Source of the DNA: Deltaproteobacteria bacterium
Lineage (GTDB): Bacteria; Myxococcota_A; UBA9160; UBA4427
DNA: 64,000 nucleotides
Assembly (NCBI GenBank): GCA_029261855.1
Contig: JAJDAN010000042.1
Location: 124,001-188,000 of the forward strand
Direction of reading: 5' to 3'
Below, piece after piece: positions 46,296 through 63,233 of this stretch (positions within the stretch are counted from its first letter, which is position 1; the number at the start of each line of letters is the position of its first letter). Below the pieces are notes generated by a model. The model saw only the letters and a list, made by a program, of their open reading frames with translations. It searched no databases and was not told where the DNA came from. Made by a program: the position numbers and the translations under genes.

Positions 46296-46300
46296 GACGA

Positions 46301-46549: not shown

Positions 46550-47163
46550 CTCGACTCCTCGGCATCGTCTGCGCCCGATCTGGAGAAGTGTTCGTCGAGG
46601 AGCTGACGCAATGCCTGCCGGGCGCGGTGCAGGCGCGTCTTGACGGCCGCCTTCGAGAGGCCCAGGGCCTCGGCGGTTTGCTCGGTATCGAATTCTTCGA
46701 TGTCGCGAAGGAGCAGAACGGTTCGGTAGGGGTCGGGAAGCTTCTCGATGGCCTCTCGAACCAGGATTCTCGTCTCTCCGCGCTCGATCAGGCGGTCCGC
46801 GCCGTCCCAGCCTGCCCCGGACACGTGCAGGTGCCCGTTCTCGGCGAAGCGGGGCAGCAGGTCGTCGATGCTCTCCTCGGGCTTGCGCCGACGGGTGCGC
46901 AGCTTCATGAGGCAGGCGTTGACCACGATCCGGTGGAGCCAGGTCGACAGGCGCGCATCCCCGTCGAAGCGATCCATCGCCCGAAACGCCGAGACGAACG
47001 CCTCCTGGACGGCCTCGCGCGCGTCGTCGTCGTTGCCCATGAAGCGCCGGGCGACTGCCAGCATGCGACCCGAGTGTGTCCGCACGAGGACCTCGTACGC
47101 GCTCTCGTCGGCGGCCCGCAGGCCGGCGAGCAGCTTCGCCTCGTCGGGGTCCGGGGCCTTCAC
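46546..47163 (-). CDS. ECF-family RNA polymerase sigma factor
   Basis: 205 residues. Region 2: YEVLVRTHSGRMLAVARRFMGNDDDAREAVQEAFVSAFRAMDRFDGDARLSTWLHRIVVNACLMKLR. Region 4: LPDPYRTVLLLRDIEEFDTEQTAEALGLSKAAVKTRLHRARQALRQLL. GTG start at 47163 overlaps the ArsC-like gene stop (GTGA); the longer track start is inside that gene. A soluble ZAS anti-sigma is coupled downstream. The trigger is unknown; linkage to a thiol-dependent reductase suggests oxidative or metalloid stress. Confidence 0.94.
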   Translation of the reverse strand: MKAPDPDEAKLLAGLRAADESAYEVLVRTHSGRMLAVARRFMGNDDDAREAVQEAFVSAFRAMDRFDGDARLSTWLHRIVVNACLMKLRTRRRKPEESIDDLLPRFAENGHLHVSGAGWDGADRLIERGETRILVREAIEKLPDPYRTVLLLRDIEEFDTEQTAEALGLSKAAVKTRLHRARQALRQLLDEHFSRSGADDAEESR

Positions 47164-47525
47164 AGCAGCTCGAGCACGTCCTCGGGCGGTCGGCCGATCG
47201 CCGCCCGGCTCCCGCGGACGAGAATGGGCCGTTCCATCAAGATCGGAGCGGACGCCGTCGCGGCGAGGATCTCGTCGTCGCTGCTCTCGGCGCTGCAACC
47301 CGCCTCGCGGAATGCCGCTTCCTGCTTGCGGATGAGATCCGACACCGGACGCCCGAGCCGTTCGACGAGGCTCGCGAGTTCCTCTTTCGAAAGCGGGTCC
47401 TTCAGGTACTCGCGAACGGCGAACGCGACACCCTTCTCTTCGAGCAGCGCGAGCGTCGCGCGGCTCTTCGAGCAGCGCGGGTTGTGGAGGAGCAACAGCT
47501 CGTCATCGGATGCGGGGAGCAGCAT
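47160..47525 (-). CDS. ArsC/Spx-family arsenate-reductase-like thioredoxin-fold protein
   Basis: 121 residues. LLLLHNPRCSKSRATLALLEEKG contains the ArsC active Cys in HNPxCxxS/R context. YLKDPLSKEELASLVERLG, LIRKQEAAFREAG and RPILVRGSRAAIGRPPEDVLELL complete the glutaredoxin-coupled ArsC/YfgD pattern. Many members are not proven arsenate reductases. Its stop overlaps the ECF sigma gene start, making it the first gene of the operon. Confidence 0.92.
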   Translation of the reverse strand: MLLPASDDELLLLHNPRCSKSRATLALLEEKGVAFAVREYLKDPLSKEELASLVERLGRPVSDLIRKQEAAFREAGCSAESSDDEILAATASAPILMERPILVRGSRAAIGRPPEDVLELL

Positions 47526-47612
47526 GGCCCGACGCTACCGCCTCTGCGAGACTGCGCACCCCCATCGGACTCCCATCGTACTCCCACCGTAGTAGGAGGG
47601 CCTGAGCAAGCC

Positions 47613-48152
47613 ATGTCTCTGCTGACACGCATCCTGGGAACCCTGCTGTCGTCTGGCGACGCGGCAACCGGCGACGACCCCGACAGCCTGCGACGCATCG
47701 CCGCAGAGTTCGAGGCGCTGCCGCCCGAACGGGCGCGCTTCCTCGCTGCCTTCACCTACGTGCTCGCCCGGGTGGCCCACGCCGACCTGCAGGTCGACGC
47801 CGACGAGCTTCGGCAGATGGAGCGCACCCTCGTCGACCTCGGCGAGCTGTCCGAGAACGAGGCGCGTCTGGCCGTCCAGACGGCCGTCGATCGGGCGGTC
47901 CGGGTCGGTGCCAGCGACAACTACCTGGTGACCCGCGAGCTGCGCCGCATGACCGAGAAGCCAGAGCGCGTGCGCCTGATGCGGAGCCTGCTCGCCGTCG
48001 CCGCTGCGGACGACAGCATCACCGCGACCGAGAGCCGCGAGCTCACGTCCATCGGCGAGGAGCTGGGCTTCAGCCGCGGCGAGATCAGCGCCCTGCGCTT
48101 CGAGTTCCGGGACAAGCTCGCAGAAACGAAGAAGCTCGAGAACGAGCGCTAG
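47613..48152 (+). CDS. TerB-family (tellurite resistance / DjlA-like) protein
   Basis: 179 residues, all-helical TerB fold: ERARFLAAFTYVLARVAHADLQVDADELRQMERTLVDLGELSENEARLAVQTAV and LMRSLLAVAAADDSITATESRELTSIGEELGFSRGEISALRFEFRDKL. The repeated acidic A(H/D)ADxxVxxxE motifs are typical metal-binding positions. AGGAGGG lies upstream of ATG at 47613. It is divergent from the ArsC operon and ends just before the 25-bp tandem array. Confidence 0.88.
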   Translation: MSLLTRILGTLLSSGDAATGDDPDSLRRIAAEFEALPPERARFLAAFTYVLARVAHADLQVDADELRQMERTLVDLGELSENEARLAVQTAVDRAVRVGASDNYLVTRELRRMTEKPERVRLMRSLLAVAAADDSITATESRELTSIGEELGFSRGEISALRFEFRDKLAETKKLENER

Positions 48153-48163
48153 GCCCTCACGAG

Positions 48164-48313
48164 GCGCCCGCGGCTAGTTCCTCACAAAGCGCCTGCGGCT
48201 AGTTCCGAACCAAGCGCCTGCGGCTAGTTCCTCACAAAGCGCCTGCGGCTAGTTTCGAACCAAGCGCCCGCGGCTAGTTCTTCACAAGGCGCCTGCGGCT
48301 AGTTTCGAACCAA
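48164..48313. repeat. 25-bp tandem repeat, six units, alternating two types, spanning a stop codon
   Basis: Units start at 48164, 48189, 48214, 48239, 48264 and 48289, each exactly 25 bp, beginning GCGCCTGCGGCTAG or GCGCCCGCGGCTAG. They alternate TTCCTCACAAA-type and TTCCGAACCAA-type endings, so the higher-order period is 50 bp x3. On the minus strand the units read TTGGTTCGAAACTAG and TTTGTGAGGAACTAG. Unit 48289-48313 provides the last codons and TAG of the RecA-like gene. Confidence 0.97.
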
Positions 48314-48982
48314 CAAGAGCGTCTTCGGGTCGAGCGCCACGTGCAGCTCGCTCAGGTCCGGGTTGTCGTGGTCCTTGAGCGCGCGCAGCACCACCGAGCC
48401 GTCTCCGGGCTCGAGTGCCAGCACGACGCTGACGATGTCGTCCAGCGCCTTCACCTCTTCGGGAATGCCCGTGACCTGCTCGCCCGACGTGGCGAACGAC
48501 AGCCACACCTCGGCGGCCAGCTCCGTGGCCAACGCGCCGACATCGAGCAGGTCCTCGCGACTGATCTCCTCGAGCCCCTCGATCAGGATCAGACTCGGCT
48601 TCGACCCCGCCTCGGACTCGACCTTGACCGCGTCCCGCAACTTGGCCGCGCTGAAGCCCGAGGGCGCGTAGGCTCGGATGCTGCGGTGTTGGTCGACTTC
48701 CGTGTGGGTCGCCGCCGCGTCATCCAGGTGCGTCGAGGACGCGAGCTCTTCATAGACCGTGTCGTAGTGCGCGCGAACGTGGGAGACGGTCTGATCGAGG
48801 GCCACGTGGAGGACGGTGCCCTGGCGCAGCAGCTCGTCCAGAGCGACGCCCACGAGGAACGGTGTCTTGCCGACGCCGTGGCCTGCCACCAGCACGCCGA
48901 TGTTGCCGATGCCGAGGCCGCCGTTGAGACCCTTCTCGAGCAGTCTCAACGGGCTCCGTGCGTTTACGAACTTGCGATACAT
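48299..48982 (-). CDS. RecA/KaiC-like P-loop ATPase of unknown function
   Basis: 227 residues. MYRKFVNARSPLRLLEKGLNGGLGIGNIGVLVAGHGVGKTPFLVGVALDELLRQG contains a Walker A (GHGVGKT). SLILIEGLEEI is a Walker-B-like strand, and AEVWLSFATSGEQVTG resembles the RecA-fold sensor region. There is no DNA-binding or second domain. The last residues LVRN and the TAG lie in the first unit of the 25-bp tandem array. EF-G lies 43 bases upstream in the same direction. A KaiC-like ATP-dependent regulator is an inference. Confidence 0.8.
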   Translation of the reverse strand: MYRKFVNARSPLRLLEKGLNGGLGIGNIGVLVAGHGVGKTPFLVGVALDELLRQGTVLHVALDQTVSHVRAHYDTVYEELASSTHLDDAAATHTEVDQHRSIRAYAPSGFSAAKLRDAVKVESEAGSKPSLILIEGLEEISREDLLDVGALATELAAEVWLSFATSGEQVTGIPEEVKALDDIVSVVLALEPGDGSVVLRALKDHDNPDLSELHVALDPKTLLLVRN

Positions 48983-49025
48983 GCATCTACCTCTGCGAGC
49001 CGGCGCGCTGCGCCGCAGCTCGGCT

Positions 49026-51125
49026 CTAGTCGTCGTCCGGGACCTTCGACTCGTACTTCTCCTTCAGCTCCTTCTGCACTTCGCCGGGAGCCGGGAGATA
49101 GCGCGCGAACTCCATCGAGAATTCGGCCTTGCCCTGGGTGAGGGATCGCAGGTCCGTCGCATAACCGAACATCTCGGACAGGGGCACCTCGGATTCGGTC
49201 CGACTGTACCCCCCTTCCTCCGTGGTTCCGACCACGGTCCCCCGGCGCTGCATGATGCTCTTGAGCATCGCGCCCTGGAATTCCTGGGGCCCCTCGACCT
49301 CCACCTTCATGATCGGCTCGAGGATAACGGGCTTGGCACGACCGTAGAACTCCCGGAAGGCCCCCCTGGCAGCCGCCTGGAACGCCATCTCGGAAGAGTC
49401 GACCGAGTGGGACTTGCCGTCGTTCACGATGATCCGCATCCCGAGCACCGGGAAGCCGATCAGGCGCCCCTTGTCGAGGCACATGCGGAAGCCCTTCTCG
49501 ACGGCGGGGATGTACTCCGTCGGGATCGAGCCGCCCTTGATCTCGCTCACGAACTCGAAATCGGGCGCGTCCTCCTCGGCCGGGATCGGCTCCACGATGC
49601 CGGCGATGCGACCATACTGACCGGAACCACCCGTCTGCTTCTTGTGGGTGTAGTCGAAGGGAACGGACTTCGAAATCGTCTCGCGGTAGGCCACCTGGGG
49701 CGCACCGGTCTCGACTTCGCAGTTGTATTCGCGCTTCATGCGCTCGACGTACACCTCGAGATGCAGCTCGCCCATGCCGGAGATGATGGTCTCGCCGCTC
49801 TCCCGATTGACTTCCGAACGGAAGGTCGGGTCTTCGCGCACGAAGCGACCGAGCGCCTTGCCCATGTTGTCCGACGACTTCTGATCGACGGGCTTCACGG
49901 ACAGCGAGATCACCGCCGCGGGCACGTGCATCGAAGTCATCGAAACGCTGATGCTCTCGTCGGTGAAGGTGTCTCCCGATGCACAGTCGACGCCGAACAG
50001 CGCGACGATGTCGCCGGAGCTCGACTCCTCGATGTCCTGCATCTCGTTGGAATGCATCCGGACCAGCCGGCCCACCTTCACCTTCTTCTGGGTACGGCTG
50101 TTGATGATGGACGTGCCCTTCTTGAGCACGCCCTGGTAGACGCGGCAGTAGGTGAGCTGTCCGTAGCGACCGTCTTCGAGCTTGAAGGCCAGAGCCACCA
50201 CCGGCTTCTCCGGCTTCGGCTCGACGATGATCGGCGCCTCGTCGTTGGTGAGGTCGACCGCCGTGTTCTCGATGTCGAACGGCGACGGCAGGTAGCGGTT
50301 GACCGCGTCGAGCAGCTTCTGGACGCCCTTGTTCTTGTAGGCCGACCCCAGGAAGACGGGCGTCAGGTCCATGGACAGCACGCCGTTGCGCGTGGCCTCG
50401 TGGATCAGCTTCTCGGTCACGCGCTCTTCGAGGATGGCTTCCATCAGCTCGTCGGAGAACATGGAGATCGCGTCGAGCATCTCTTCGCGCGCAACCGCGG
50501 CGGCGTCGACCATGTCGGCCGGGATGTCCTTCTCGACGACGTCTCGACCCTCTTCCCCTTCGAAGTAGATCGCCTTCAGCGTGATGAGATCGATCACGCC
50601 CGCGAACTCGTTCTCGAGGCCGATCGGCAGCTGGAACATCACCGCGTTGTGGGCGAGCTTGTCGCGCAGCTGCTGGGTCACGCGGCGCGGGTCGGCGCCG
50701 GACCGGTCGAGCTTGTTGATGAACGCGATGCGCGGGACCTTGTAGCGCTTCATCTGGCGGTCCACGGTCATCGATTGGGACTGCACGCCCGCGACGCCAC
50801 ACAGGATCAGCACGGCGCCGTCGAGCACGCGCAGGGCACGCTCGACTTCGATCGTGAAGTCCACGTGACCGGGGGTGTCGATGATGTTGATCTGGTGGTT
50901 GTCCCACTCGCAGTAGGTCGCCGCCGACGCGATCGTGATGCCGCGCTCACGTTCGAGCTCCATCGAATCCATCGTCGCGCCGACTTCGTCCTTGCCGCGC
51001 ACCTCGTGGATCGCGTGGATCTTCCCCGTGTAGTAGAGGATCCGCTCGGTCAGCGTCGTCTTGCCCGAATCGATATGGGCGCTGATCCCGATGTTCCGGG
51101 TCTTCGAGAGATCGTTCATTGCCAT
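49026..51125 (-). CDS. fusA: Elongation factor G, spd/mtEFG1 type
   Basis: 699 residues, five-domain translocase GTPase. [20 protein letters not shown] (G1), [24 protein letters not shown] (G3), [12 protein letters not shown] (G4); domain IV has [16 protein letters not shown] and domain [49 protein letters not shown] is characteristic of the mitochondrial EFG1-like bacterial group rather than the common fusA (which reads AHIDAGKTTTTERIL and WMxQEQERG). ATG at 51125 (alternative 51119). No str-operon neighbours (rpsL, rpsG, tuf), consistent with an additional or relocated EF-G. Confidence 0.95.
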
Positions 51126-51346
51126 GATGGCCCGCCTCGTCCGCCGATTGGCTGGACTGATCGCCTGCAGACGCACGACCCGGCCACCCCCCGGTGCCGC
51201 GGTGCGTCGCTGGGAATCTCGTTTGCTGGGTTGGGTTTGGTGGACTTTCGATCTTAGTGGCCGCGCACTTTAGCGAGGTGACGCCGCTGGGGCGAGCCCG
51301 CCTTGGAACGGCGCGTCGAGCCCCGGGGGGAAGCGGCTCGAAATGG

Positions 51347-52108
51347 TCATTTGCCGGGGTCGCGCTCGCGGCCCGCGCGGCTAGAGCCCAGTGCGGCCCG
51401 CCGGTGCCACGCTTCGGCGTCGCCGTCGTACGCGTGTGCCGGCCCCACGACGCACGCCCGACGCGCCGCGCAGCCCACGCCGCAGGCGGGAACCCGGGCG
51501 GACGTCTCGAAGCAGGCCTCGAAGTCGAACGCGCGGTCGCCGACCGCTGCACCCGGGCAGGCGGCGACGCACGGCGCGGCGCATCCGGCGCAAGGGGAGA
51601 AGCCGCAATCCGGATCGCTCGCGGCGAGCGGCCGACTCGACGCCAGTACGGCGCGGATCGACATCCACGGTCCGTACTCGCGGTGGAGCAGAATGCCGAG
51701 TCGGCTGGGTGCCCCGAGGCCAGCGGCCTGGCCGAGGGACACGAGGTCGACGAAGTGCCCCTCGCGACGCTCGAAGTACAGACCCGACGCAGCGTCGTAG
51801 CCCGCGGCCTGTTCGTAGGCCACGGCGGCGCGAACGACACGGGCGAGGACCGCGTCCAGCGGGTCGGGCTCGGTCGCCGCTTCCGGCGCCGCCATGCAGC
51901 CCCGGAAGAACGCCGAGCCGCCGGTCGCCAGCACGACGATGCAGCGAGCACCCGCCAGCAGCGTCGGCGTGCGCCAGGGCGCCGCAACGCGCGCGTCGTA
52001 GTCCTGGGGAGAGAGCACCCCGGCGAGCCCCAGCCCCGCGCGCGCGACCGCCGGGTCGAGGCCCAGGGCCGTCGGACCCGGAGCCGCGGGATCAGCCGAG
52101 TCGCGCAC
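51347..52108 (-). CDS. [4Fe-4S] ferredoxin-type protein, QueG/reductive-dehalogenase-like domain
   Basis: 253 residues. Middle: GHFVDLVSLGQAAGLGAPSRLGILLHREYGPWMSIRAVLAS, the RLG...EYGP/W pattern seen in QueG-related proteins. C-terminal: FSPCAGCAAPCVAACPGAAVGDRAFDFEACFETSARVPACGVGCAARRACV, a CxxCxxxCxxxCP cluster motif and further Cys. It is shorter than QueG, so epoxyqueuosine reduction is not assured. GTG at 52108 overlaps the formyltransferase-like gene end by 17 bases; the track start is inside that gene. Confidence 0.8.
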   Translation of the reverse strand: MRDSADPAAPGPTALGLDPAVARAGLGLAGVLSPQDYDARVAAPWRTPTLLAGARCIVVLATGGSAFFRGCMAAPEAATEPDPLDAVLARVVRAAVAYEQAAGYDAASGLYFERREGHFVDLVSLGQAAGLGAPSRLGILLHREYGPWMSIRAVLASSRPLAASDPDCGFSPCAGCAAPCVAACPGAAVGDRAFDFEACFETSARVPACGVGCAARRACVVGPAHAYDGDAEAWHRRAALGSSRAGRERDPGK

Positions 52109-53015
52109 CGGGCTCGAGGCCGACTTCAGCGGCGGGAACCTTCTTGCCGTCGCCCACCCGCAGCTTCCCGATGGCCAGACGCCCGCCCAGGGCCGCCACC
52201 AGCAAGCGTCCATCTTCCAACCCGAGCAGCGTGCCCGGGGCCTCATTCCCCGCTTCGGGCAATAGCTGCGAGCCGAACAGTCGCACGGGCCCGCCGTCGA
52301 GACGCGCGTGCGCACCCGGGCTGGGATCGCAGCCACGGACTTGCCGGTCGATCTCCGCCGCCGGACGTGACCAGTCGATGCGCGCGACCTCGTCGTCCAC
52401 CAGGCCCTGGAAGCTCGCGCCCTCTTCGGTCTGGGCGGTGAAGGTCGCCGTCCCGTTCGCGATGGCGTCGACGGCCTCGACCACGGCGTCCACGCCGAGG
52501 GCATAGAGCTTGTCGAAATAGAGCGAAGAAACCGTGTCCGACGCGTCGATCGGGACGCCGCCCTTCTGCACGACCAGCGGCCCCTCGTCGACGCCCTCGG
52601 TCACCTGGAAGACGCTGACACCGCTCTCGGTCTCGCCGAGCATGATCTGCCAGGCCAGCGCCGCACCCCCCCGGTACTTCGGCAGCAGGGACGGGTGGAA
52701 GCAGATCGAACGGTGCTTGGGATGGTCGGCGATCTCGGCGGGGATGATCACCGTCGTGAAGGGAAAGACGTTCAGCTCGGCGCCGAGGCTCGCGTACTCG
52801 TCCACCAGCTCGGGGATCGCCTCGCCGCGCTTGCGGAAGCGCTTGTAGCGGAAGAGCCGATAGCCACGCTCTTCCGCGAGTGCCGCGAGCGGGTCCGGGC
52901 GCCCGCTCTCGGGCGGGGCGTAGACGCCGACCACCTCGTGGCCTGCATCCGCGAGACGTTCGGTGACGTCGCGTCCGAACGGGGCCTGGCCGAAGATCGC
53001 GATCCTGAGTCCCAT
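52092..53015 (-). CDS. Formyl-THF hydrolase/formyltransferase-fold protein (ALDH1L1 N-domain-like)
   Basis: 307 residues. RIAIFGQAPFGRDVTERLADAGHEVVGVY, LGAELNVFPFTTVIIPAEI and ICFHPSLLPKYRGGAALAWQIMLGE, then an OB-like C-terminal domain (IDWSRPAAEIDRQVRGCDPSPGAHA). The GAELNV and HPSLLP blocks match the hydrolase domain of 10-formyltetrahydrofolate dehydrogenase more closely than Fmt (the true fmt starts at 63783). His in HPSLLP and the later Asp are plausible catalytic residues. It probably handles formyl groups from 10-formyl-THF. It is followed by the coupled ferredoxin-like gene. Confidence 0.86.
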   Translation of the reverse strand: MGLRIAIFGQAPFGRDVTERLADAGHEVVGVYAPPESGRPDPLAALAEERGYRLFRYKRFRKRGEAIPELVDEYASLGAELNVFPFTTVIIPAEIADHPKHRSICFHPSLLPKYRGGAALAWQIMLGETESGVSVFQVTEGVDEGPLVVQKGGVPIDASDTVSSLYFDKLYALGVDAVVEAVDAIANGTATFTAQTEEGASFQGLVDDEVARIDWSRPAAEIDRQVRGCDPSPGAHARLDGGPVRLFGSQLLPEAGNEAPGTLLGLEDGRLLVAALGGRLAIGKLRVGDGKKVPAAEVGLEPGARLG

Positions 53016-53048
53016 GACAGCTCGTTCCTCGTCCGCGGTCGCCCGCGG

Positions 53049-53714
53049 CTACATGAATGCGCGACGCGTGCCGATCGTACCGCGCGTCTTCGCGGGAATA
53101 CCGTAGGCCAGGCTGTGCGGCTCGATGCAGCCCGTCACCAGGGCGCGCGCACCGATTACCGAGTGCGCGCCGATCTCGCTGCCGCAGGTGACCGTCACAT
53201 CCGACGCCACCCAGACGAACTCGCCGATGCTCACGGGCGCCGACTTCTCGGGCGTCTGATCGTCCACGGCGTGCTCGGAATCATAGACCCGGGTTCCGGG
53301 TCCGATCATCGCCCCTTCGCCCACGTCCACGCGTTCCTTGGCGGACAGCTGGCAGCCGTTGAACCAACAGTCGCGCCCGATCGTGAGGACGGCTCCCGGG
53401 TAGGCGACCAGGCGGATCTTCTCGACCTCGCAGCGCAGCCAGGTGCCGGCGCCCACCTCGACACGCGCGCCGCTGGCGACCTGGAAGCAGATCTCACCGG
53501 GCAGCCGTTCTGCCACCACGTCGGCACCGATCTCGAGCACCGCGCCCGGCTCGAGGTCGAAGCGCGCGACCGCCAGGTTGGTGCTGGCCGAAGGATGGAT
53601 GCGCAGACCGGGGTGGGCCCGTTCGAGGCGACGCAGGCGCGCGCGATCCCAGGCCTGGAGCGCGCGCAGCGCGAACCGCAACCACGCGCCGGGGACACCG
53701 GCCGCGACCGCCAC
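53049..53714 (-). CDS. Left-handed beta-helix (hexapeptide-repeat) acyltransferase-like protein
   Basis: 221 residues with hexapeptide-type repeats over most of the length: FDLEPGAVLEIGADVVAERL, ASGARVEVGAGTWLRC, YPGAVLTIGRDCWFNGCQL, VDVGEGAMIGPGTRVYDSEH, APVSIGEFVWVASDVTVTCGSEIGAHSVIGARALVTG. The end SLAYGIPAKTRGTIG is the usual closing segment of colanic-acid-type acetyltransferases. GTG start one base after the infA stop. Acceptor unknown, probably an envelope sugar. Confidence 0.85.
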   Translation of the reverse strand: MAVAAGVPGAWLRFALRALQAWDRARLRRLERAHPGLRIHPSASTNLAVARFDLEPGAVLEIGADVVAERLPGEICFQVASGARVEVGAGTWLRCEVEKIRLVAYPGAVLTIGRDCWFNGCQLSAKERVDVGEGAMIGPGTRVYDSEHAVDDQTPEKSAPVSIGEFVWVASDVTVTCGSEIGAHSVIGARALVTGCIEPHSLAYGIPAKTRGTIGTRRAFM

Positions 53715-53715
53715 T

Positions 53716-53952
53716 TCAGGGTGCGTTCTGGCCTTCGCGCAGCCGGAACGTGATGAAGCCGTGAGTGGGGTCGTACGGGGAAAGCCCGACCGTGACGCGG
53801 TCCCCCGGAATCACGCGAATCCGGAAGCGCCTCATACGGCCCGAGAGCTGAGCGGTCACGGTCTGGCCGGACTCGAGGGTGATCTGGTAGCGACCTCCGC
53901 CGAGGATCTTCTCGACGCTGCCGGTTGCCTGAATGAGGTCGTCTCGCGCCAA
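53716..53952 (-). CDS. infA: Translation initiation factor IF-1
   Basis: 78 residues, single OB fold binding the A site of the 30S subunit: ARDDLIQATGSVEKILGGGRYQITLESGQTVTAQLSGRMRRFRIRVIPGDRVTVGLSPYDPTHGFITFR. The Gly-Arg-Met-Arg-R-(F/N)-x-I core is clear. Start is TTG. Its usual partner genes (ribosomal proteins, secY) are absent, so this may be a relocated or second copy. It overlaps nothing but abuts the hexapeptide gene. Confidence 0.95.
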   Translation of the reverse strand: MARDDLIQATGSVEKILGGGRYQITLESGQTVTAQLSGRMRRFRIRVIPGDRVTVGLSPYDPTHGFITFRLREGQNAP

Positions 53953-54080
53953 ATCTCTCTCTTTTCGGACCCGCGTCGGATGCAGCCGCAGGGTCAGGTC
54001 GTGGAACGCCCACCGGAATCGAGGGCGGCGAGCAAACTAGCAGACAGGGCCGCTCTCGCGAGCAGACGATCCTCAGGTTC

Positions 54081-54109
54081 TTGAAATTGAAATTCGTTTT
54101 CAATAAAAT
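54081..54109 (+). promoter_or_regulatory. Near-consensus promoter with Fur-box-like palindrome in the spacer
   Basis: TTGAAA (54081-54086), exactly 17 bases, TAAAAT (54104-54109). The inverted repeat ATTGAAA-TTCGT-TTTCAAT (54086-54104, 19 bp) fills the spacer and resembles Fur operators in length, symmetry and AT content. This is the most AT-rich patch in the region. Confidence 0.8.
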
Positions 54110-54151
54110 CCGGCCTTCATCGTCCGCCCTGAATCGCGAAGGAGCCATCCA

Positions 54152-54496
54152 TTGCCCCGTCCCGCCCGTTCGAACCCCTGCTGCCGACGCTGCCGAAATC
54201 AGATCCTGCTCCGAAGGGCCGGGAGCCTCCGGGAAGCGGCTGCTCGGGAAGACGAGCCCATCCTGCTGCGCGCCGCGGTCTGGCTCGAAGGACGTGCGCG
54301 ACGCACCGGTGACCCCGCCCTGTGCCTCGAGGCAGGCCTCCACTACCTGGTACTCGCCGAGCATCCCGACGTGCTGGCCCAGACGGGACTCGCCCAGCAC
54401 TACCTCGCCAAGGCGGACGAATGGCTGCAGCGGGTCTCCGGAGGCGCACTCGAGGGCCAGCGAGAGCCGGTTGCTGGTCGAATCCCGCTCTCATAG
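54152..54496 (+). CDS. Small Cys-containing protein of unknown function, possibly iron-regulated
   Basis: 114 residues from a TTG start with AAGGAG seven bases upstream. The N-terminus PRPARSNPCCRRCRNQ has a CCxxC cluster. The rest is helical with a repeat-like LCLEAGLHYLVLAEHPDVLAQTGLAQHYLAKADEWLQRV. No family recognised. It sits 43 bases downstream of a strong promoter with a Fur-like palindrome and 46 bases before the enoyl-CoA hydratase gene. The strong translation and transcription signals argue it is real despite overlapping a longer shadow ORF. Confidence 0.65.
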   Translation: MPRPARSNPCCRRCRNQILLRRAGSLREAAAREDEPILLRAAVWLEGRARRTGDPALCLEAGLHYLVLAEHPDVLAQTGLAQHYLAKADEWLQRVSGGALEGQREPVAGRIPLS

Positions 54497-54542
54497 CGTC
54501 TCGCGTTCCCAAAAGGCGACGAAAGAAGCGACGAAGGAAGTC

Positions 54543-55314
54543 ATGAAAGAGATCCGGCTGGAGCGCAGCGACACCGGGGTCGTCACCCTGACCCTCAACC
54601 GCCCGCACCGGAAGAACGCGGTGGCAGTCGACATGTGGGAGGAGCTGCGGCGCATCTTTCACGAGGTGTCCCAGAACCCGGACGACCGTGTCCTCGTCGT
54701 CACCGGGGAGGGAGACGCCTTCTGCGCCGGGGGCGGACCTGTCGGCGGGCTCCGGCGACCTCCACCCGATGCAGGCCCTCTCGACGGTCAACACGGCGGC
54801 GCTGGCGCTCCACGAGATCACCGTGCCCACGATCGCCAAGGTCAACGGGGACGCGGTCGGCGCCGGCATGAACCTCGCGCTCGGCTGCGACCTCGTGGTC
54901 GCCGGCGAGAAGGCCCGCTTCTCCGAGATCTTCGTCCGGCGCGCGCTGTCGGTGGACTTCGGCGGCACCTGGCTGCTGCCGCGCCTGATCGGCATGCACA
55001 AGGCGAAGGAGCTGGCCTTCTTCGGAGAGATCATCTCCGCAAGGGAAGCCGAGCGCATCGCCCTCGTGAACCGCGTGCTACCGGACGACGAGCTCGACGC
55101 CTTCGTCGACGCGTGGGCCGCGAAGCTCGTAGCCGGACCGCCCCTGGCGCTTCAGCAGACGAAGAAGATGCTGTCGAACGCCTTCAACCAGGGCCTTTCC
55201 GAAGCCCTCGATGCGGAGGCCGCCTCCCAGGCGGTGAACCTCGCAAGCGAGGACACCCGCGAGGGCTTCCGCGCCTTCCTCGAGAAGCGGGACCCGGTCT
55301 TCAAGGGGCGCTGA
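54543..55314 (+). pseudogene. Enoyl-CoA hydratase/isomerase family gene with a one-base frameshift
   Basis: The crotonase sequence begins MKEIRLERSDTGVVTLTLNRPHRKNAVAVDMWEELRRIF and reaches GEGDAFCAGG in one frame. It continues in the next frame as ADLSAGSGDLHPMQALSTVNTAALALHEITVPTIAKVNGDAVGAGMNLALGCDLVVAG to the stop at 55314. The break is in a run of five Gs at 54729-54733; four Gs would restore AFCAGADLS. All other conserved regions are intact, so the lesion is recent or a sequencing error. The activity would be hydration of enoyl-CoA in fatty-acid breakdown. ATG at 54543. Confidence 0.88.
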
Positions 55315-55343
55315 TCCCGGGCGGGGTCCCGGGACAGTCGTAA

Positions 55344-55435
55344 TGGCGGAGAGGGTGGGATTCGAACCCACGGAAGGCTTGCACCTTCACCTGATTTCGA
55401 GTCAGGCACGTTCAACCGAGCTCCGCCACCTCTCC
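55344..55435 (-). tRNA. tRNA-Ser (anticodon CGA)
   Basis: Minus strand: acceptor GGAGAGG pairs with CCTCTCC, followed by G and an encoded CCA. The anticodon arm is CCTGA-CTCGAAA-TCAGG, giving anticodon CGA. A long variable arm and GTTCGAATCC T-loop are typical of serine tRNAs. Length 92 nt. Confidence 0.95.
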
Positions 55436-55475
55436 GCGGGGGCCGGAACTTAGCAACGGTTGGGCAGACAGGAAA

Positions 55476-55504
55476 TTGACCCCAAATCAGGCGGCCGGTA
55501 GAGT
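55476..55504 (+). promoter_or_regulatory. Sigma-70 promoter of the SRP RNA gene
   Basis: TTGACC (55476-55481), 17-bp spacer, TAGAGT (55499-55504). The predicted start, six to seven bases on, coincides with the 5' end of the folded SRP RNA at 55510-55511. Confidence 0.75.
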
Positions 55505-55509
55505 GACCC

Positions 55510-55647
55510 GGCCTGCGCCGAGTCGTGATCGCAGGGTCCCGCTCGAACTAGAGCTTCGTGAACCCCGTCAGATCCGGAAGGAAGCAGCGGCAGCGGGGCC
55601 TCGGTTGCGTGTGGGGGTGCCCTGCGGTCTCGAGTCGGCGTGAGGCC
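55510..55647 (+). ncRNA. ffs: Bacterial signal recognition particle RNA (4.5S type)
   Basis: The apical SRP motif GTCAGATCCGGAAGGAAGCAGC is present within CCCCGTCAG...CAGCGGGG. The ends pair: GGCCTGCGCCGA with TCGGCGTGAGGCC, and CGCAGGG with CCCTGCG. Ends are inferred from pairing. It directly precedes dnaX, a common arrangement. Confidence 0.93.
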
Positions 55648-55696
55648 GTCGACGGCCCCCAGTGAGATCCACAGCGTCGAAACCAGCGAGGCCCAT

Positions 55697-57691
55697 GTGA
55701 GCTACCAGGTCATCGCGCGAAAGTGGCGTCCCCAGACCTTCGACGAGGTCACGGCACAGAGCCACGTCACGACGCCCCTCCGCAATGCGATCCGGACCGA
55801 ACGCATCCCCCACGCGATCCTGTTCACGGGCCCCCGTGGCGTGGGCAAGACCACCCTCGCCCGCATCCTCGCGCGCTGCCTGAACTGCGAGAACGGGCCC
55901 ACGGAATCGCCCTGCGGCACCTGCTCGGCGTGCAAGGAAATCTCCGAGGGCCGCTCGACGGACGTCCAGGAAGTCGACGCCGCGAGCCGCACCAGCGTCG
56001 ACGACGTGCGCGGGCTGATCGAAGCGATCCGCTATGCGCCCAGCCCGGGCAAGTACCGCATCTTCGTGGTCGACGAAGTACACATGCTTTCGGCTGCGGC
56101 GTTCAACGCGCTGCTCAAGACCCTCGAAGAGCCGCCGCCCTCGAGCCTGTTCGTGTTCGCCACCACGAACCCCGAGAAGATCCCGTTCACCGTCCTCTCC
56201 CGCTGCCAGCGCTACGACCTGCGCCGGATCTCCACCAAGGAGATCAGCGCGAGGCTGCGCGCCATCGCCGAGGCCGAGGACATCACGATTTCCGACTCGA
56301 GCCTGCTGGCCATCGGCCGCGAAGGCGACGGGTCGATGCGCGACGCCCAGACGCTGTTCGACCAGGTGATCGCCTACGGCGGCACGGACGTGCGCGACGA
56401 GGTCGTGAGCGAGGTGCTCGACCTCATCGACCGCCGCCTGCTGCTCGAGATCCTCGAGGCCTGCGTGGATTCGAACCCCGCCGCCGTCCTCGAAGCCTGC
56501 GCGAAGGCCGCTTCCGGCGGCAGCGACCCCAAGCGCCTGTCCGAAGTGCTGGTCGGTCTGCTGCGCGACCTGGTCGTGTTGCGGGTCGCGCCGGATTCCG
56601 AAGGACTGGTCGAGGGCAGCGACGACGAGATCGCCGAGCTGCGCTCCCTGGCCGAACGCACCGAGCCGGCGCGCCTGCGGCGCATGTTCCGCGCCCTGGT
56701 GCGCGAGCAGGAAGACCTGGCCTGGGCGCCGGACGCACTCGCCGTCCTCGAGATGGCGCTCGTGCGAGTCGCCACCCTGGCCGCCGGCGACGACGTGTCG
56801 CGACTGCTCGGGCGCATCGAATCCCTCGAACGCACCCTGGCCGGAGGCGGCCCCGCCGGCCCCGGAAGCGGAGGTCGCGGATCTTCGGGAGGAGGTGCCG
56901 GCGGCAAGGCCAAGCGTTTCTCCGGACCGGGCCGCGACGCCACCCGTCCGCAGCAGCCGACGATCACCGCCGCCGCGCCCCAGAGCGGTGCGACCGCGTC
57001 CCAGGCCAGCGACAGCGCGGCGGAGCCGGTCTCCGCGGCGCCAGTGGAGCCGGTGGAGCTGCCAGCGACGGCGCCGACGACCTCGCCCGCCTCGCCCGCC
57101 TCGCCCGCCCCGACCGCCCCGCCCGTCGCGAGCGTCCCGGAGCCCAGCCCGACCGCCCCGACCCCGCAGCCCGTCACGCTCACGCCGCCCACGCGGCCCG
57201 CACCACAGACTCCGGCTCCGGCCCCGGACGCGCCCGGCATCGGTGCGCCCCTGGACATCGTGTTCGACCGGTTGCGCGCGCGCACCCGGGACGTGAGCGC
57301 CGGGTTGTTCGCGGTGCTCCAGAACGTGCGGCTGGCGGCGCGCGAGCCCGGCCTGCTCCGCTTCGAGACGGCCAACGACTTCGCGCGCAAGCGCCTCGCG
57401 GACCGCAGCGCCGACCTCGAGTCGATCTGCAGCACGTTCTTCGGCGAAGCCACGAAGATCGAGGTGGCGGAAGCCGTCACGGCAAGCCGCGCCGAGACCA
57501 AGCCGCACCACGAGGACACCCGACGCTTGCGACACGAAGCGCTGAACCATCCGCTCGTGAACACGGCCCTCGAGGTTCTCGAGGCCGACATCGTCGAGAT
57601 CCGTCCCCTCGGCACACGCGGACCCGTCCGGACCTCGGTTCCCCCGATGCCGGATGCCGACCTCGACGATCTGGACCCGGCCACCACATGA
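55697..57691 (+). CDS. dnaX: DNA polymerase III subunits gamma/tau
   Basis: 664 residues, clamp-loader ATPase. VSYQVIARKWRPQTFDEVTAQSHV is the N-terminus. HAILFTGPRGVGKTTLARILA is Walker A, CLNCENGPTESPCGTCSAC is the zinc site, VVDEVHMLSAAAFNALLKTLEEPP is Walker B, and LSRCQRYDLRRIS is the arginine-finger region. A Gly/Ser- and Pro/Ala-rich linker spans residues ~390-520, then a C-terminal domain (LDIVFDRLRARTRDVSAGLFAVLQNVRL). GTG at 55697; the track start lies inside the SRP RNA. No obvious AAAAAAG slippery site, so a separate gamma product is not predicted. It overlaps ybaB by ATGA. Confidence 0.96.
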   Translation: MSYQVIARKWRPQTFDEVTAQSHVTTPLRNAIRTERIPHAILFTGPRGVGKTTLARILARCLNCENGPTESPCGTCSACKEISEGRSTDVQEVDAASRTSVDDVRGLIEAIRYAPSPGKYRIFVVDEVHMLSAAAFNALLKTLEEPPPSSLFVFATTNPEKIPFTVLSRCQRYDLRRISTKEISARLRAIAEAEDITISDSSLLAIGREGDGSMRDAQTLFDQVIAYGGTDVRDEVVSEVLDLIDRRLLLEILEACVDSNPAAVLEACAKAASGGSDPKRLSEVLVGLLRDLVVLRVAPDSEGLVEGSDDEIAELRSLAERTEPARLRRMFRALVREQEDLAWAPDALAVLEMALVRVATLAAGDDVSRLLGRIESLERTLAGGGPAGPGSGGRGSSGGGAGGKAKRFSGPGRDATRPQQPTITAAAPQSGATASQASDSAAEPVSAAPVEPVELPATAPTTSPASPASPAPTAPPVASVPEPSPTAPTPQPVTLTPPTRPAPQTPAPAPDAPGIGAPLDIVFDRLRARTRDVSAGLFAVLQNVRLAAREPGLLRFETANDFARKRLADRSADLESICSTFFGEATKIEVAEAVTASRAETKPHHEDTRRLRHEALNHPLVNTALEVLEADIVEIRPLGTRGPVRTSVPPMPDADLDDLDPATT

Positions 57692-58035
57692 GTCCCCCGG
57701 ACCTCGCCGACATCCTGTCCAAGGCCCAGGAGATGCAGGGGCGACTCGCGGAGATCCAACGCGAGCTCGCCACCCGGCGCTTCGAGGGTTCCGCCGGCGG
57801 CGGCATGGTGACCGCCGTCGTCAGTGGCGAGCTGCGCGTGCTCTCCGTCGAAGTCGAGCCGGGTCTCGTGACCGGCGGCGACCGCGAGATGATCCAGGAC
57901 CTGTGCGCGGCAGCCGTCAACGCGGCGCTCGCGAACGCCCAACAAGGTGCCCAGGAAGAGATGCAGCGCCTGACGGGCGGCCTCGGGATCCCGGGCCTCG
58001 GTGGGCTCGGCGGCTTCGGCACGGGAGGCGGCTGA
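57688..58035 (+). CDS. ybaB: YbaB/EbfC nucleoid-associated protein
   Basis: 115 residues. LADILSKAQEMQGRLAEIQRELATRRFEGSAGGGMVTAVVSGELRVLSVEVEP is the YbaB fold (helix, GxV strands), and the C-terminus ends in a Gly-rich tail (GGLGIPGLGGLGGFGTGGG). Dimeric DNA-binding protein. Starts by overlapping the dnaX stop and is followed by recR after six bases, the usual dnaX-ybaB-recR order. Confidence 0.95.
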   Translation: MSPPDLADILSKAQEMQGRLAEIQRELATRRFEGSAGGGMVTAVVSGELRVLSVEVEPGLVTGGDREMIQDLCAAAVNAALANAQQGAQEEMQRLTGGLGIPGLGGLGGFGTGGG

Positions 58036-58041
58036 GCCGGG

Positions 58042-58644
58042 ATGCGCGGATCTCCTGCGATCGACCGTGTGATCGCCAGCCTCAAGCGACTGCCCGGTAT
58101 CGGGGACAAGTCCGCCTCGCGGCTCGCCTTCTTCCTGCTGGGTGCGCCCGACAGTCTGGTTGCCGACCTCGCCGACGCCCTGAGCCGCCTGAAGCAGGAA
58201 ACGGTCATGTGCGCCGACTGCTTCAACCTGGGGGACCGCACGCCCTGCCCCATCTGCTCGGACGACCGCCGGGACGACTCGCTGCTGTGCGTCGTCGAAG
58301 AGCCCGCAGACCTGTCCGCCATCGAGAAGAGCGGCAGCTTCAAGGGCCGCTACCACGTCCTTGGCGGCACCCTGTCCCCCATCGACGGGATGGGCCCGGG
58401 GGAGCTGCGGATCGGCGAACTCGAGCGGCGTGTGCGGTCCGGGGGCATCCGCGAGGTCATCCTCGCCACCAACCCCAACGCCGAGGGCGACGCGACGGCC
58501 CACTACATTGGCGATCGCCTGCGGCCCGCCGGGGTGCTGGTGTCCCGGATCGCCTACGGCATGCCTCTTGGCGGAGACCTCGAGTACGCGGACCACGTGA
58601 CGGTGGGTCGTTCGCTCGAAAACCGCCGCAAGTTCAGCGACTAA
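58042..58644 (+). CDS. recR: Recombination mediator RecR
   Basis: 200 residues. IASLKRLPGIGDKSASRLAFFLL is the N-terminal helix-hairpin-helix. MCADCFNLGDRTPCPICSD holds the four zinc Cys. LLCVVEEPADLSAIEKSGSFKGRYHVLGGTLSPIDGMGPGEL and the TOPRIM-like EVILATNPNAEGDATAHYI complete the protein. Works with RecO/RecF in gap repair. Followed by a GC-rich hairpin. Confidence 0.97.
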   Translation: MRGSPAIDRVIASLKRLPGIGDKSASRLAFFLLGAPDSLVADLADALSRLKQETVMCADCFNLGDRTPCPICSDDRRDDSLLCVVEEPADLSAIEKSGSFKGRYHVLGGTLSPIDGMGPGELRIGELERRVRSGGIREVILATNPNAEGDATAHYIGDRLRPAGVLVSRIAYGMPLGGDLEYADHVTVGRSLENRRKFSD

Positions 58645-58653
58645 GACACAAGG

Positions 58654-58674
58654 GGGGCGCCCCGAAGGCGCCCC
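58654..58674 (+). terminator. Hairpin after recR
   Basis: GGGGCGCC (58654-58661), loop CCGAA, GGCGCCCC (58667-58674), followed by CAAAA rather than a T-tract. A second palindrome CGAGACGCGTCTCG lies at 58686-58699. Confidence 0.6.
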
Positions 58675-58823
58675 TCAAAACGCCCCGAGACGCGTCTCGA
58701 GGCTAAAGCGAAGCCCCAGCACAACCGATCCAAAACCGGTCAGCGAGTTGCCCCACGACCCGCTCATGGTTACCGTCCGGAAGATTGCCCTTCCATTTCG
58801 AGCGGTTACAGAGGCAGGTGCCG

Positions 58824-59312
58824 ATGTTCGACAGCCAGCTTGTGATGCTCGAGGAGGACTTCCGCAGAATTGCGGCGGTAAGCGAGCGGCTGGTCCGTGA
58901 CGCGAACTCCAAGGGCGTCTTCGTCGTCGACAAGGCCGGCCAGCTGATCGCCGAAGCCGGCGAGCTGCGCGGCATCGACAGCACCAGCCTGGCTTCCCTG
59001 ACCGCCGGCTGTATCGCCGCCACCGGCGGCCTCGCCAAGATCGTGGGCGAGGAAGAGTTCCCGATCCACTTCCACCAGGGACAGCGCGACAACCTCCACA
59101 TCACCCTGGTGGGGAGCCGCATGATCCTGGTCGTCATCTTCGACGAGCGCAGCTCGCTGGGCCTCGTCCGCCTCCGTGTCAAGAAGGCCGGCGCCGAGCT
59201 GGCCAAGGTGTTCGAGGAGATCGAGAAGAAGTCCGCGCAGCAGGCGTCCCAGGGCGCAAGCCCCTTCGCCGAAATCACCGACGATGACATCGACAATCTC
59301 TTTTCAGACTGA
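58824..59312 (+). CDS. mglB: MglB, roadblock/LC7 GTPase-activating protein
   Basis: 162 residues from ATG at 58824. DANSKGVFVVDKAGQLIAEAGELRGIDSTSLASLTAGCIAATGGLAKIVGEEEFPIHFHQG and LVVIFDERSSLGLVRLRVKKA follow the Myxococcus MglB sequence closely, down to the C-terminus SPFAEITDDDIDNLFSD. MglB is the GAP for the polarity GTPase MglA, encoded next. The longer track start (TTG at 58785) adds 13 residues not in the family; GCAGGTG precedes 58824. Confidence 0.95.
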   Translation: MFDSQLVMLEEDFRRIAAVSERLVRDANSKGVFVVDKAGQLIAEAGELRGIDSTSLASLTAGCIAATGGLAKIVGEEEFPIHFHQGQRDNLHITLVGSRMILVVIFDERSSLGLVRLRVKKAGAELAKVFEEIEKKSAQQASQGASPFAEITDDDIDNLFSD

Positions 59313-59349
59313 CCCGTTCCCTCTCACCCTGATTCCGACGGCCTGACTC

Positions 59350-59937
59350 TTGTCCTTCATCAACTATTCATCGCGAGAGATCAACTGCAAGATCGTCTAC
59401 TACGGGCCCGGCCTGTGTGGCAAGACGACCAATCTGCAGCACATCTACTCGAAGACGAACCCCGACCTCAAGGGGAAGATGATCTCGCTCGCCACGGAAA
59501 CGGAGCGCACGCTCTTCTTCGACTTCCTGCCCCTGGCGCTCGGACAGATCCGCGGCTTCAAGACCCGCTTCCATCTCTATACGGTGCCGGGCCAGGTCTT
59601 CTACGACGCCAGCCGGAAGCTCATCCTGAAGGGCGTCGACGGCGTGGTGTTCGTGGCCGATAGCCAGATCGAGCGCATGGAGGCCAACGTCGAGAGCCTC
59701 GACAACCTCAAGACGAACCTCGCCGAGCAGGGCTACGAGCTCGCGAAGCTCCCGTACGTCATCCAGTACAACAAGCGAGACCTGCCGAACGCCGCACCCC
59801 TCGAGGAAATGAAGCGCCTCCTCAACCCGAACGGCGTGACGGAGTACGAGGCCTGCGCGACCAACGGCAAGGGCGTCTTCGAGACGCTCAAGGGCGTCGC
59901 CAAGGGCGTCTTGTCCGATCTGAAGAAGCTCCGCTAG
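59350..59937 (+). CDS. mglA: MglA, polarity-determining small GTPase
   Basis: 195 residues, TTG start. [35 protein letters not shown] (P-loop GPGLCGKTT), [50 protein letters not shown] and [10 protein letters not shown] (NKRD) match bacterial MglA nearly residue for residue. In Myxococcus it sets the cell poles for gliding and type IV pili; elsewhere its target can differ. Paired with mglB 37 bases upstream. Confidence 0.97.
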
Positions 59938-59956
59938 CAACGCGGGCGGGTTCTTC

Positions 59957-60649
59957 TCAACAGACGGTTCGGAGCTTGAGACGCGGCAGCGTCTCTCGCA
60001 GGGTCGGGTCGGCGGCGATTGCCTTGCGCAGGGCTGCGGCGGTGCCGAGCTTGCGGCCCGCGGCCAGGATGCGGTTGTCGTAGTCCTCGACGTCGATGGA
60101 CACGACGTCCGGGAACATCGTGCGGAGCGCGTGACTGACGACCGGGGCTTCGTCGAGAGCGTTGCTCACCAGGATGCCGCCCGGCGCGAGCCGCTTCTTG
60201 GCGAGGGCGAGGCCGGGGTCGGGAAGCCAGCCGGGCTTGTGCACGTCGTCGCCCTGCCCCACGAAGACGTCCTCGAAGATCGCATCGTAGTGCGCCTCGT
60301 CTTCGCGCAGGAACGCCAGGGCGTCGCCGACGACGACCTCCACGCCGAGGGCGTCGAGGTCCAGGTGCTCTCGCGCGGCGCGCACCACCGCCGCATCGAA
60401 CTCGACCCCGACGATGTGGCAGGACGGCGCGATGGCGCGCGCGATCCGCGCCGCGCTGCCGCCGCCCAGCCCGAGGACGAGCAGTCGCTTCCGTCGCTTC
60501 GGCGGTAGCGCCAGCAGCGGCGCCGCGATCGCGTCCCAGACCGAGCCCGTGACGGCGCTGCCCGGCTGATAGAACGACGCGAAGGTTCCGTCGACGATCA
60601 GCTCCCGTCCCGAGTCGCCCAGCTTGACGTGCACGCGGCCCCGCTTCAC
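59957..60649 (-). CDS. Spermidine-synthase-like SAM-dependent transferase
   Basis: 230 residues. RLLVLGLGGGSAARIARAIAPSCHIVGVEFDAAVVRAAREHL is the Rossmann motif I and acidic post-motif. VVVGDALAFLREDEAHYDAIFEDVFVGQ follows the spermidine synthase layout, but the Asp pair that binds the polyamine is not clear. GTG at 60649 has GGGAGGAAA upstream; the longer track ORF runs into priA. Many such proteins have unknown substrates. Confidence 0.85.
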   Translation of the reverse strand: MKRGRVHVKLGDSGRELIVDGTFASFYQPGSAVTGSVWDAIAAPLLALPPKRRKRLLVLGLGGGSAARIARAIAPSCHIVGVEFDAAVVRAAREHLDLDALGVEVVVGDALAFLREDEAHYDAIFEDVFVGQGDDVHKPGWLPDPGLALAKKRLAPGGILVSNALDEAPVVSHALRTMFPDVVSIDVEDYDNRILAAGRKLGTAAALRKAIAADPTLRETLPRLKLRTVC

Positions 60650-60700
60650 CCGTTTCCTCCCTGTCGCGGCCGTTGACCTTTCTTCGCGGCCGCCGCCGCA

Positions 60701-60706
60701 TACAAT
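60701..60706 (+). promoter_or_regulatory. -10-like hexamer directly before priA
   Basis: TACAAT ends 7 bases before the priA ATG. A TTGACC at 60673-60678 is 22 bp away, too far for a normal -35. Leaderless start is possible. Confidence 0.35.
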
Positions 60707-60713
60707 TGCCGCC

Positions 60714-63224
60714 ATGCAGGCGACGCTGTTCTCGGAATCCGATGGAGAGACACGCGACCGGATCGTCGTCCGCATCGCCCTGCCGGTCCCCATCGATTCC
60801 GTGTTCGACTACATCGTGCCGGAAGCGATGGCGGAGAATGCCCGACCCGGGCATCGCGCGCTCGTTCCGTTCTCGGGACGCCGTCTCACCGGCGTCATCG
60901 TCGAGCGCCTCGAAGGGGTTCCGCGCCGCACAGCCGATGGCGAAGCCACGCGCAAGCTGGCGCGCATCGACCGGGTCGTAGACGAAGAGCCGGTCGTCTC
61001 CCTCGCCATGATCGGCCTGTTGCGCGAAGCCGCGCACGATCTCCTGTGCCCCATCGGGCTCGCGCTCAACCATGCGTTGCCTCCGGGCTCATCGCCCCGG
61101 GTAGCGCACCGCCTGAAGCTCACCGAGCGCGGCGCGCGCGTCCTTACCGACTCCGCCGCCAGCCCCGCGGCGCACGCGGTCCTCGAAGCGCTCCGCAAAG
61201 GCCCGCTCACACCGGCGAATCTCGCGCGACGCCTGTCCGGCGTGCAGGCACCCGTGCGCGAGCTGACCCAGGACGGGTTGATCGAGAAGATCCAGGTCGA
61301 AACGGGTCCCGGCGTGCGCGAGGCCCGGGAGCGGACGGTGCTGCTGCGCCCGGGCGTCGACACCGAAGCCGCCTGCGCCGGCGCCCTCGCGCGTGCCCCG
61401 AAGCAGGCCGAGCTCTTGCGCCGGATCGAGCGCAGCGGCGAGACGCCCACCCGCGACATCACCCAAGCGAACCCATCCGCCACGAGTCTCCTGCGCAGCC
61501 TGGCCAAGCGGGGCTTCGTCGAGTTCCGCGAGCGGATCGCGCCGCGCAACCTGCTCGGCACCGAGATCGAACGCGACAGCGAGCTGGATCTCACGAACGA
61601 GCAGAACGACGCGCTCGTGGCCATCGAAGCGGCCATGCGCGAGCAGCGTCCCGATCGCTTCCTGCTCCATGGCGTCACCGGCAGCGGCAAGACCGAGGTC
61701 TACCTGCGCGCCGTCGCCTCCGCGCTGCGGGCGGGACGCCAGGCCCTGGTGCTGGTTCCCGAGATCACCCTCACGCACCAGATCGTCGCTCGCCTGCGCG
61801 CACGCTTCGGCGACGAGCTGGCAGTCCTGCACAGCGGATTGCGTCCCGGCGAGCGGCTCGAGCAGTGGCAGCGACTGCGACGGGGCGAAGTGTCCATCGC
61901 AGTGGGCGCGCGCAGCGCGTTGTTCGCCCCCATCGAGAATCTGGGCGTGATCGTCGTCGACGAGGAGCACGACAGCGCCTACAAGAACGAAGAAGGCTTC
62001 CGCTATCACGCCCGGGACCTCGCGGAGCGGCGCGCGAAACTGGCGGGCTGCCCCGTCGTGCTCGGCACCGCGACTCCGTCCCTCGAAACCCGCTACGAGG
62101 CCGACCGCGGCGCCATGCAACGCCTGGTACTGGCGCGCCGCATCGGGGGGCGTCCGCTGCCCGCAGTCGAGATCGTCGATCTCACCGCGGAACGCGCGAA
62201 GGCGCCGCGCGGACGCAAGCTGATCCTCGCGCGGCCCTTGCGTCGGGCGATCACCGAAGCCCTCGCCGCGGGCGGTCAGACCATCCTGTTCCTGAACCGG
62301 CGCGGCTTCTCCACACAGATCTATTGCTTCGACTGCGGCTTCGCCGAGCGCTGCAAGGACTGCGACGTCGCCCTCGTCTACCACACGAGCGACGGCCGGC
62401 TGCGCTGCCACTACTGCGACTACGACAAGCTCCCGCCCGACACCTGCGGCGGCTGCGGCTCGCCCGACACTGCGCTCCTGGGCCTGGGCACCGAACGGCT
62501 CGAGGAAGAGGTCCGCATCCTGTTCCCGGATGCGCGCACCGCGCGCCTCGACCGCGATTCCGCCGCCCGCCGCGGCTTCACCGAAGGCGTCCTCGAAGCG
62601 CTGCGCACGCGCGAGATCGACATCCTGATCGGAACCCAGATGGTCGCGAAGGGGCACGACTTCCCGGGCGTGCAGCTCGTCGGCGTCGTCGCCGCGGACC
62701 TCGGGCTGCACATGCCCGATTTCCGGGCCGCCGAGCGGACCTTCCAGGTGCTGACCCAGGTGGCGGGGCGCGCGGGCCGTGCAGGCACGCCGGGCCGCGT
62801 CGTGCTGCAGACCTGCGTTCCCGACCACTACGCGATCCAGCCCGTGCAGGACCACGACTACGAGACCTTCTACCGCGAAGAGCTCGAGCACCGGGCCGCG
62901 GTCGGGTACCCACCCTTTACACGCCTGTGTCAGGTGCTGGTGTCGGGTCCCGACGAGGCCGCTACCCGCGCTGCAGCGCAGGTCCTCGCGGACGCCGCGA
63001 AGCGCGAAGCGAGTCGCACGGGAGAAGCGGGAGCCGTCGAAATCCTCGGCCCGGCCCCGTCCCCTCTCGCGCGACTGCGCGGACGCTTCCGTTTCCAGCT
63101 GCTCTTCAAGGGCGCAGACCCCGCCCTCCTCGACCGCGTGGCGCGCGACGCCGCAACACGCGCGGGCGCGCTGGCAAAGCCCCTGCGGGCCGTCGTGGAC
63201 GTGAATCCGGGCAGCATGCTATAG
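60714..63224 (+). CDS. priA: Primosomal protein N' (replication restart helicase PriA)
   Basis: 836 residues. The N-terminal 3'-DNA-binding domain (VPIDSVFDYIVPEAMAENARPGHRALVPFSGRRLTGVIVE) precedes the helicase: FLLHGVTGSGKTEVYLRAV (Walker A), IVVDEEHDSAYKNEEGFRYHARDLAERRA (DEEH), and VLGTATPSLET. Zinc site: IYCFDCGFAERCKDCDVALVYHTSDGRLRCHYCDYDKLPPDTCGGCGS. Then LGTERLEEEVRILFPDA and GTQMVAKGHDFPGVQLVGVVAAD. ATG at 60714; upstream residues in the track ORF are not PriA-like. Followed by def. Confidence 0.96.
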   Translation: MQATLFSESDGETRDRIVVRIALPVPIDSVFDYIVPEAMAENARPGHRALVPFSGRRLTGVIVERLEGVPRRTADGEATRKLARIDRVVDEEPVVSLAMIGLLREAAHDLLCPIGLALNHALPPGSSPRVAHRLKLTERGARVLTDSAASPAAHAVLEALRKGPLTPANLARRLSGVQAPVRELTQDGLIEKIQVETGPGVREARERTVLLRPGVDTEAACAGALARAPKQAELLRRIERSGETPTRDITQANPSATSLLRSLAKRGFVEFRERIAPRNLLGTEIERDSELDLTNEQNDALVAIEAAMREQRPDRFLLHGVTGSGKTEVYLRAVASALRAGRQALVLVPEITLTHQIVARLRARFGDELAVLHSGLRPGERLEQWQRLRRGEVSIAVGARSALFAPIENLGVIVVDEEHDSAYKNEEGFRYHARDLAERRAKLAGCPVVLGTATPSLETRYEADRGAMQRLVLARRIGGRPLPAVEIVDLTAERAKAPRGRKLILARPLRRAITEALAAGGQTILFLNRRGFSTQIYCFDCGFAERCKDCDVALVYHTSDGRLRCHYCDYDKLPPDTCGGCGSPDTALLGLGTERLEEEVRILFPDARTARLDRDSAARRGFTEGVLEALRTREIDILIGTQMVAKGHDFPGVQLVGVVAADLGLHMPDFRAAERTFQVLTQVAGRAGRAGTPGRVVLQTCVPDHYAIQPVQDHDYETFYREELEHRAAVGYPPFTRLCQVLVSGPDEAATRAAAQVLADAAKREASRTGEAGAVEILGPAPSPLARLRGRFRFQLLFKGADPALLDRVARDAATRAGALAKPLRAVVDVNPGSML

Positions 63225-63225: not shown

Positions 63226-63233
63226 ACCGCGCC

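Follow-up and report, generated by a model that had tools for sequence, protein, structure and literature searches.

A putative Fur-controlled gene for an orphan helical protein in an uncultured Myxococcota lineage

Results

The window, the 64,000-nucleotide (64-kb) stretch of DNA analyzed here, carries at positions 54152–54496 (+ strand) an open reading frame for an orphan protein of 114 residues, predicted to be helical and bearing an N-terminal CCRRC motif. Homologs were found in two other Myxococcota MAGs. Translation starts at a TTG codon (54152), with a Shine-Dalgarno-like AAGGAG (54139–54144, + strand) 7 nt to its 5′ side. Further upstream lie a candidate −35 element, TTGAAA (54081–54086, + strand), and, 17 nt from it, a candidate −10 element, TAAAAT (54104–54109, + strand), both identical in front of the sister-species ortholog. 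This TTGAAA-17-TAAAAT pair (54081–54109) was the top promoter-like match in a scan of positions 45000–64000 (19 kb), with 10/12 bases; two promoter-like sites were found there versus 0.7 expected from shuffles. The surrounding region has ~67% G+C, and the A+T content of the window peaks around the 31-mer at 54081: only 5 overlapping 31-mers out of 63,970 attain 24/31 A+T. A first-pass annotation had described a near-consensus promoter, AT-rich in GC-rich surroundings, followed by AAGGAG and a TTG start, and each of these elements was present.

The gene is flanked on one side by the divergent infA (IF-1; 53716–53952, − strand), which we do not consider part of the regulon. No small gene was seen beside infA in 26 other family loci read, and this neighborhood is thus not conserved together with the small gene. 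On the other side, 46 nt downstream, begins a crotonase/enoyl-CoA hydratase gene (54543–55314, + strand), perhaps co-transcribed with the small gene in a Fur operon. A +1 frameshift within a run of G near 54730 splits it into fragments 54543–54737 and 54688–55314. Its homologs are intact in two family members, so either the assembly is wrong at this point or the gene has recently become a pseudogene. Beyond it, a small bacterial SRP RNA (RF00169, 55530–55629) lies between tRNA-Ser(CGA) (55344–55435, − strand) and a dnaX-like gene.

The promoter is overlapped by a putative Fur-type operator, the imperfect inverted repeat TTGAAATTGAAATTCGTTTTCAA (54081–54103, unstranded; 23 bp), which is symmetric at 18/23 positions and spans the −35 element together with the full spacer. 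In the classical 19-bp register it reads GAAATTGAAATTCGTTTTC (54083–54101), with 13/19 bases agreeing with the Fur consensus GATAATGATAATCATTATC; this is the E. coli consensus, and the lineage's own form of the box resembles TTGAAATTGAAATTCGTTTTCAA. The site was the single best match to GATAATGATAATCATTATC on either strand of the window. With a weight matrix derived from other loci carrying the Fur box and leaving out the window's site, the operator scored 45.4 bits, versus a best of 13.6 bits in 40 Markov shuffles of the window. The Fur-type repeat of the first-pass annotation therefore stands, but not its dimensions: it had been taken as a 19-bp spacer, whereas the spacer is 17 bp and the 23-bp repeat extends over the −35 element as well.

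The 6.96-Mb genome (98.6% complete, 91 contigs) was scanned for the same motif by pattern search rather than by matrix. Five places matched, the small gene included, and the reversed pattern gave zero matches in the same genome. Because the pattern was designed with knowledge of the window's site and of two initial genome matches, the count of five is no blind census; the weight of the argument is carried by the reversed-pattern control and by the identity of the boxed genes. The first-pass annotation had named absence of the motif before known iron genes as a finding that would refute the assignment, but the motif was found there: upstream of feoA and feoB (C32:324158; FeoB recognized by search, FeoA by eye), at C31:72917 ahead of bfd (PF04324) and bfr (TIGR00754, above cut-off), where two boxes overlap, and upstream of a TonB receptor gene (PF00593, PF07715) at C11:30660. 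This receptor gene is divergent from a FecCD-type importer, and on its other side lie genes encoding a FecCD permease and an ATPase of FecE/heme type. A further site (C24:61510) precedes an operon (L009:2337–5002 and L074) whose products are a porin-like protein of 480 aa, one that matches FMN_bind weakly, and a small membrane protein of 187 aa. This boxed operon may encode a so far undescribed system for iron uptake or reduction.

A Fur protein is encoded in the genome at C38:8312–8665 (PF01475, 119.5 bits). Its closest relatives are Fur proteins in PDB (4e-30) and ferric uptake regulators in NCBIfam. A second, weaker FUR-family (PF01475) paralog is also encoded. No description of a Fur regulon in Myxococcota was found in the literature collection searched.

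An ortholog in G001, the only same-genus MAG compared, shares 58% identity over 90 residues and keeps both the reading frame and the CCRRC start. With dN of 0.35 versus dS of 0.77, and differences between the two genes distributed 24/24/38 over the codon positions, the pattern is that of a coding sequence under purifying selection. The ortholog is preceded by TTGAAATTGAAAATCGATTTCAATAAAATCC, identical to the window at 29/31 bases through the −10 element. The neighboring genes differ: infA and the crotonase gene in the window, oxygenase-like and carotenoid-oxygenase-like genes in G001. The motif also stands before the bfr region (in a bfd-bfr arrangement) and a TonB receptor gene of G001, and before the bfr region and a porin-like gene of the order-mate G056. 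Box and gene have thus been kept together amid different neighbors, and the box recurs at the iron loci of both relatives, which points to it as the iron operator of the lineage.

Two further features were seen in G001. An RND/MMPL-like exporter gene is closely preceded by a Fur-type box (L080, G001:C276:4196) and may also belong to the regulon. The small gene of G001 has an ATG 7 nt after the −10 element (L011:1570–1610), so its transcript is probably leaderless; the window's gene has a Shine-Dalgarno sequence and a TTG 42 nt after the −10 element.

The protein, probably a small cytosolic one, begins MPRPARSNPCCRRC and has C10, C11 and C14 in the CCxxC arrangement described by the first-pass annotation; apart from these three N-terminal cysteines it has one that is unconserved. 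The annotation had assigned it to no known family, and our searches agree: no sequence match was obtained in Pfam, NCBIfam or PDB, even at E up to 1–10, and no relative in viral contigs or the plasmid collection. A Bfd-like [2Fe-2S] ferredoxin identity was rejected, PF04324 having no match in the protein. An AlphaFold prediction made with three sequences gave a helical bundle with helices at residues 12–31, 35–52, 55–69, 72–75 and 80–95. Block-mean pLDDT was 92–97 over residues 31–90, with lower confidence at the start of helix 1, where the CCxxC lies. Foldseek returned no significant fold match (best E = 1.2, TM 0.45).

Scans of order, class and phylum genomes with the single sequence and a three-row profile yielded three convincing family members. 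In GTDB-wide scans the single sequence retrieved none and the profile two, apparently the G001 and G056 loci. Further matches at E of about 3e-4 to 0.01 were judged to be chance; six were translated and gave no recognizable family pattern. A weak G006 match was rejected as reverse to another reading frame and was gone with the profile, and the remaining weak matches were rejected on E-value, internal stops or short coverage. The known members therefore come from three Myxococcota genomes (the window's, G001 and G056), and statements on conservation rest on correspondingly few sequences.

The G056 homolog is more distant (about 31–36% identity). It keeps the core, including H64 and H71, which all three members share, and lacks the N-terminal cysteines; the CCxxC is common to the two same-genus members. 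No box was found on its contig, so neither Fur control nor the CCxxC is family-wide. Its start codon overlaps the stop codon of a peroxiredoxin gene (GTGA), coupling the two translationally. In this peroxiredoxin gene (L012:3711–4330) a TGA codon occurs in frame where the active-site residue is expected (DFTFV-TGA-ATEF), pointing to selenocysteine; the product is probably a selenoprotein. A peroxiredoxin of this type was not found in the window's genome (G000) or in G001 with its C-terminal part as query.

Discussion

The most satisfactory explanation is that the small gene is under Fur control, which we regard as very probable. Its box is the same as that before the iron-uptake and storage genes of the genome, and the gene is thus very probably on when iron is scarce. 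This supports, at the level of sequence, the first-pass reading of an iron-starvation response gene, as does the conservation of the box before the G001 ortholog. Under sufficient iron, metal-loaded Fur would occupy the inverted repeat, and with it the −35 element and spacer of this sigma-70-type promoter, shutting out RNA polymerase. Under iron limitation Fur would leave, and the small gene would be transcribed, possibly together with the crotonase gene. We infer binding by the genome's own Fur, low-iron induction, co-transcription and the biochemical role of the product from these comparisons.

The arrangement matches that of classical Fur-repressed promoters of E. coli and Pseudomonas, with an inverted repeat of GATAAT-like hexamers over the −35 element and spacer, and with the box also before feo, bfd-bfr and TonB receptor genes. 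Fur boxes built from GATAAT hexamers sit at −35/−10 sites (PMC7536154), and Fur occludes polymerase (PMC4506495). It differs in the TTGAAATTGAAATTCGTTTTCAA-like form of the lineage's box, 13/19 to the E. coli consensus, and in being a candidate site identified from sequence.

The protein itself could be a diverged FagA or a Bfd/FeoC-type helper, invisible to sequence search. This would concern identity only and leave Fur control standing. Both Bfd and FeoC are Fur targets of small size, often with cysteines, and bfd provides such a case behind a Fur box in this very genome. In pseudomonads, FagA heads the fagA-fumC-orfX-sodA operon, which has a putative Fur motif and is up-regulated by iron limitation (PMC3377617). 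Compared by description only, FagA and the window's protein are alike as small proteins of obscure function heading a Fur-controlled iron-limitation transcript, but no fumC or sodA lies beside the window's gene. Bfd is separately present and recognizable as a PF04324 [2Fe-2S] protein encoded next to bfr, whereas the small protein is predicted to be all-helical with an N-terminal CCxxC. Since even permissive searches of the three sequence libraries, and Foldseek below E = 1, gave no match, we consider an identity of this kind improbable.

Fur-family operators resemble one another, and the second PF01475 protein might in principle occupy the box. As a PerR-, Zur- or Irr-like regulator it would place the gene in a response to peroxide, zinc or heme, and the translational coupling of the G056 homolog to a peroxiredoxin gene would speak for such control. 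That operon, however, has no box on its contig. The motif marks feoAB, bfd-bfr and a TonB receptor gene, which are classic iron genes, and the main FUR protein is closest to Fur in both NCBIfam and PDB. We therefore think control by another family member quite improbable and retain Fur.

It is very improbable that the box serves the crotonase gene, with the small reading frame a minor leader or passenger, close as that gene follows on the same strand. In G001 the box and the small gene occur together, but the downstream gene is carotenoid-oxygenase-like, and a search of that genome yielded no close crotonase homolog at the threshold applied. For the crotonase homologs of two family members, the sequence read contains no Fur-like box, and the window's crotonase gene is frameshifted. 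Finally, the non-standard TTG start and the few homologs could be taken to mean that the box alone is real and the frame makes no functional protein, a reading that is scarcely tenable beside the same-frame ortholog at 58% identity with its matching CCRRC start, dN below dS, and the confident fold prediction.

With Fur control as the preferred reading, the role of the protein can be narrowed only tentatively, no homolog of known function having turned up to support one. The N-terminal CCxxC could serve as a thiol or metal site. The peroxiredoxin link of the distant homolog points towards redox protection, but that homolog lacks the N-terminal cysteines. AhpD-like and other CxxC partners of peroxiredoxins offer a parallel: they too are helical and carry a CxxC where the first helix begins, and the G056 homolog is peroxiredoxin-coupled. 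The small protein differs in having no Pfam match to such families, and here again the coupled homolog lacks the cysteines. The role we favor, at somewhat less than an even chance, is that of an accessory protein that binds thiols or metal and serves iron sparing or redox protection. A more specific proposal, which we offer as speculation and think unlikely, is a new iron-starvation family of uncultured Myxococcota in which a His-bearing helical core gains a CCxxC and acts as a metal or redox adaptor, able to pair with a selenocysteine peroxiredoxin.

The proposed regulation is ordinary Fur biology; what is new is the protein family only, undescribed in the libraries searched and narrow in distribution. 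Its gene would bring this new family into the Fur regulon, and the sites compared here define the form of the Fur box in an uncultured Myxococcota lineage. Operator-based scanning of this kind can give an orphan protein a condition of use, in this case iron scarcity.
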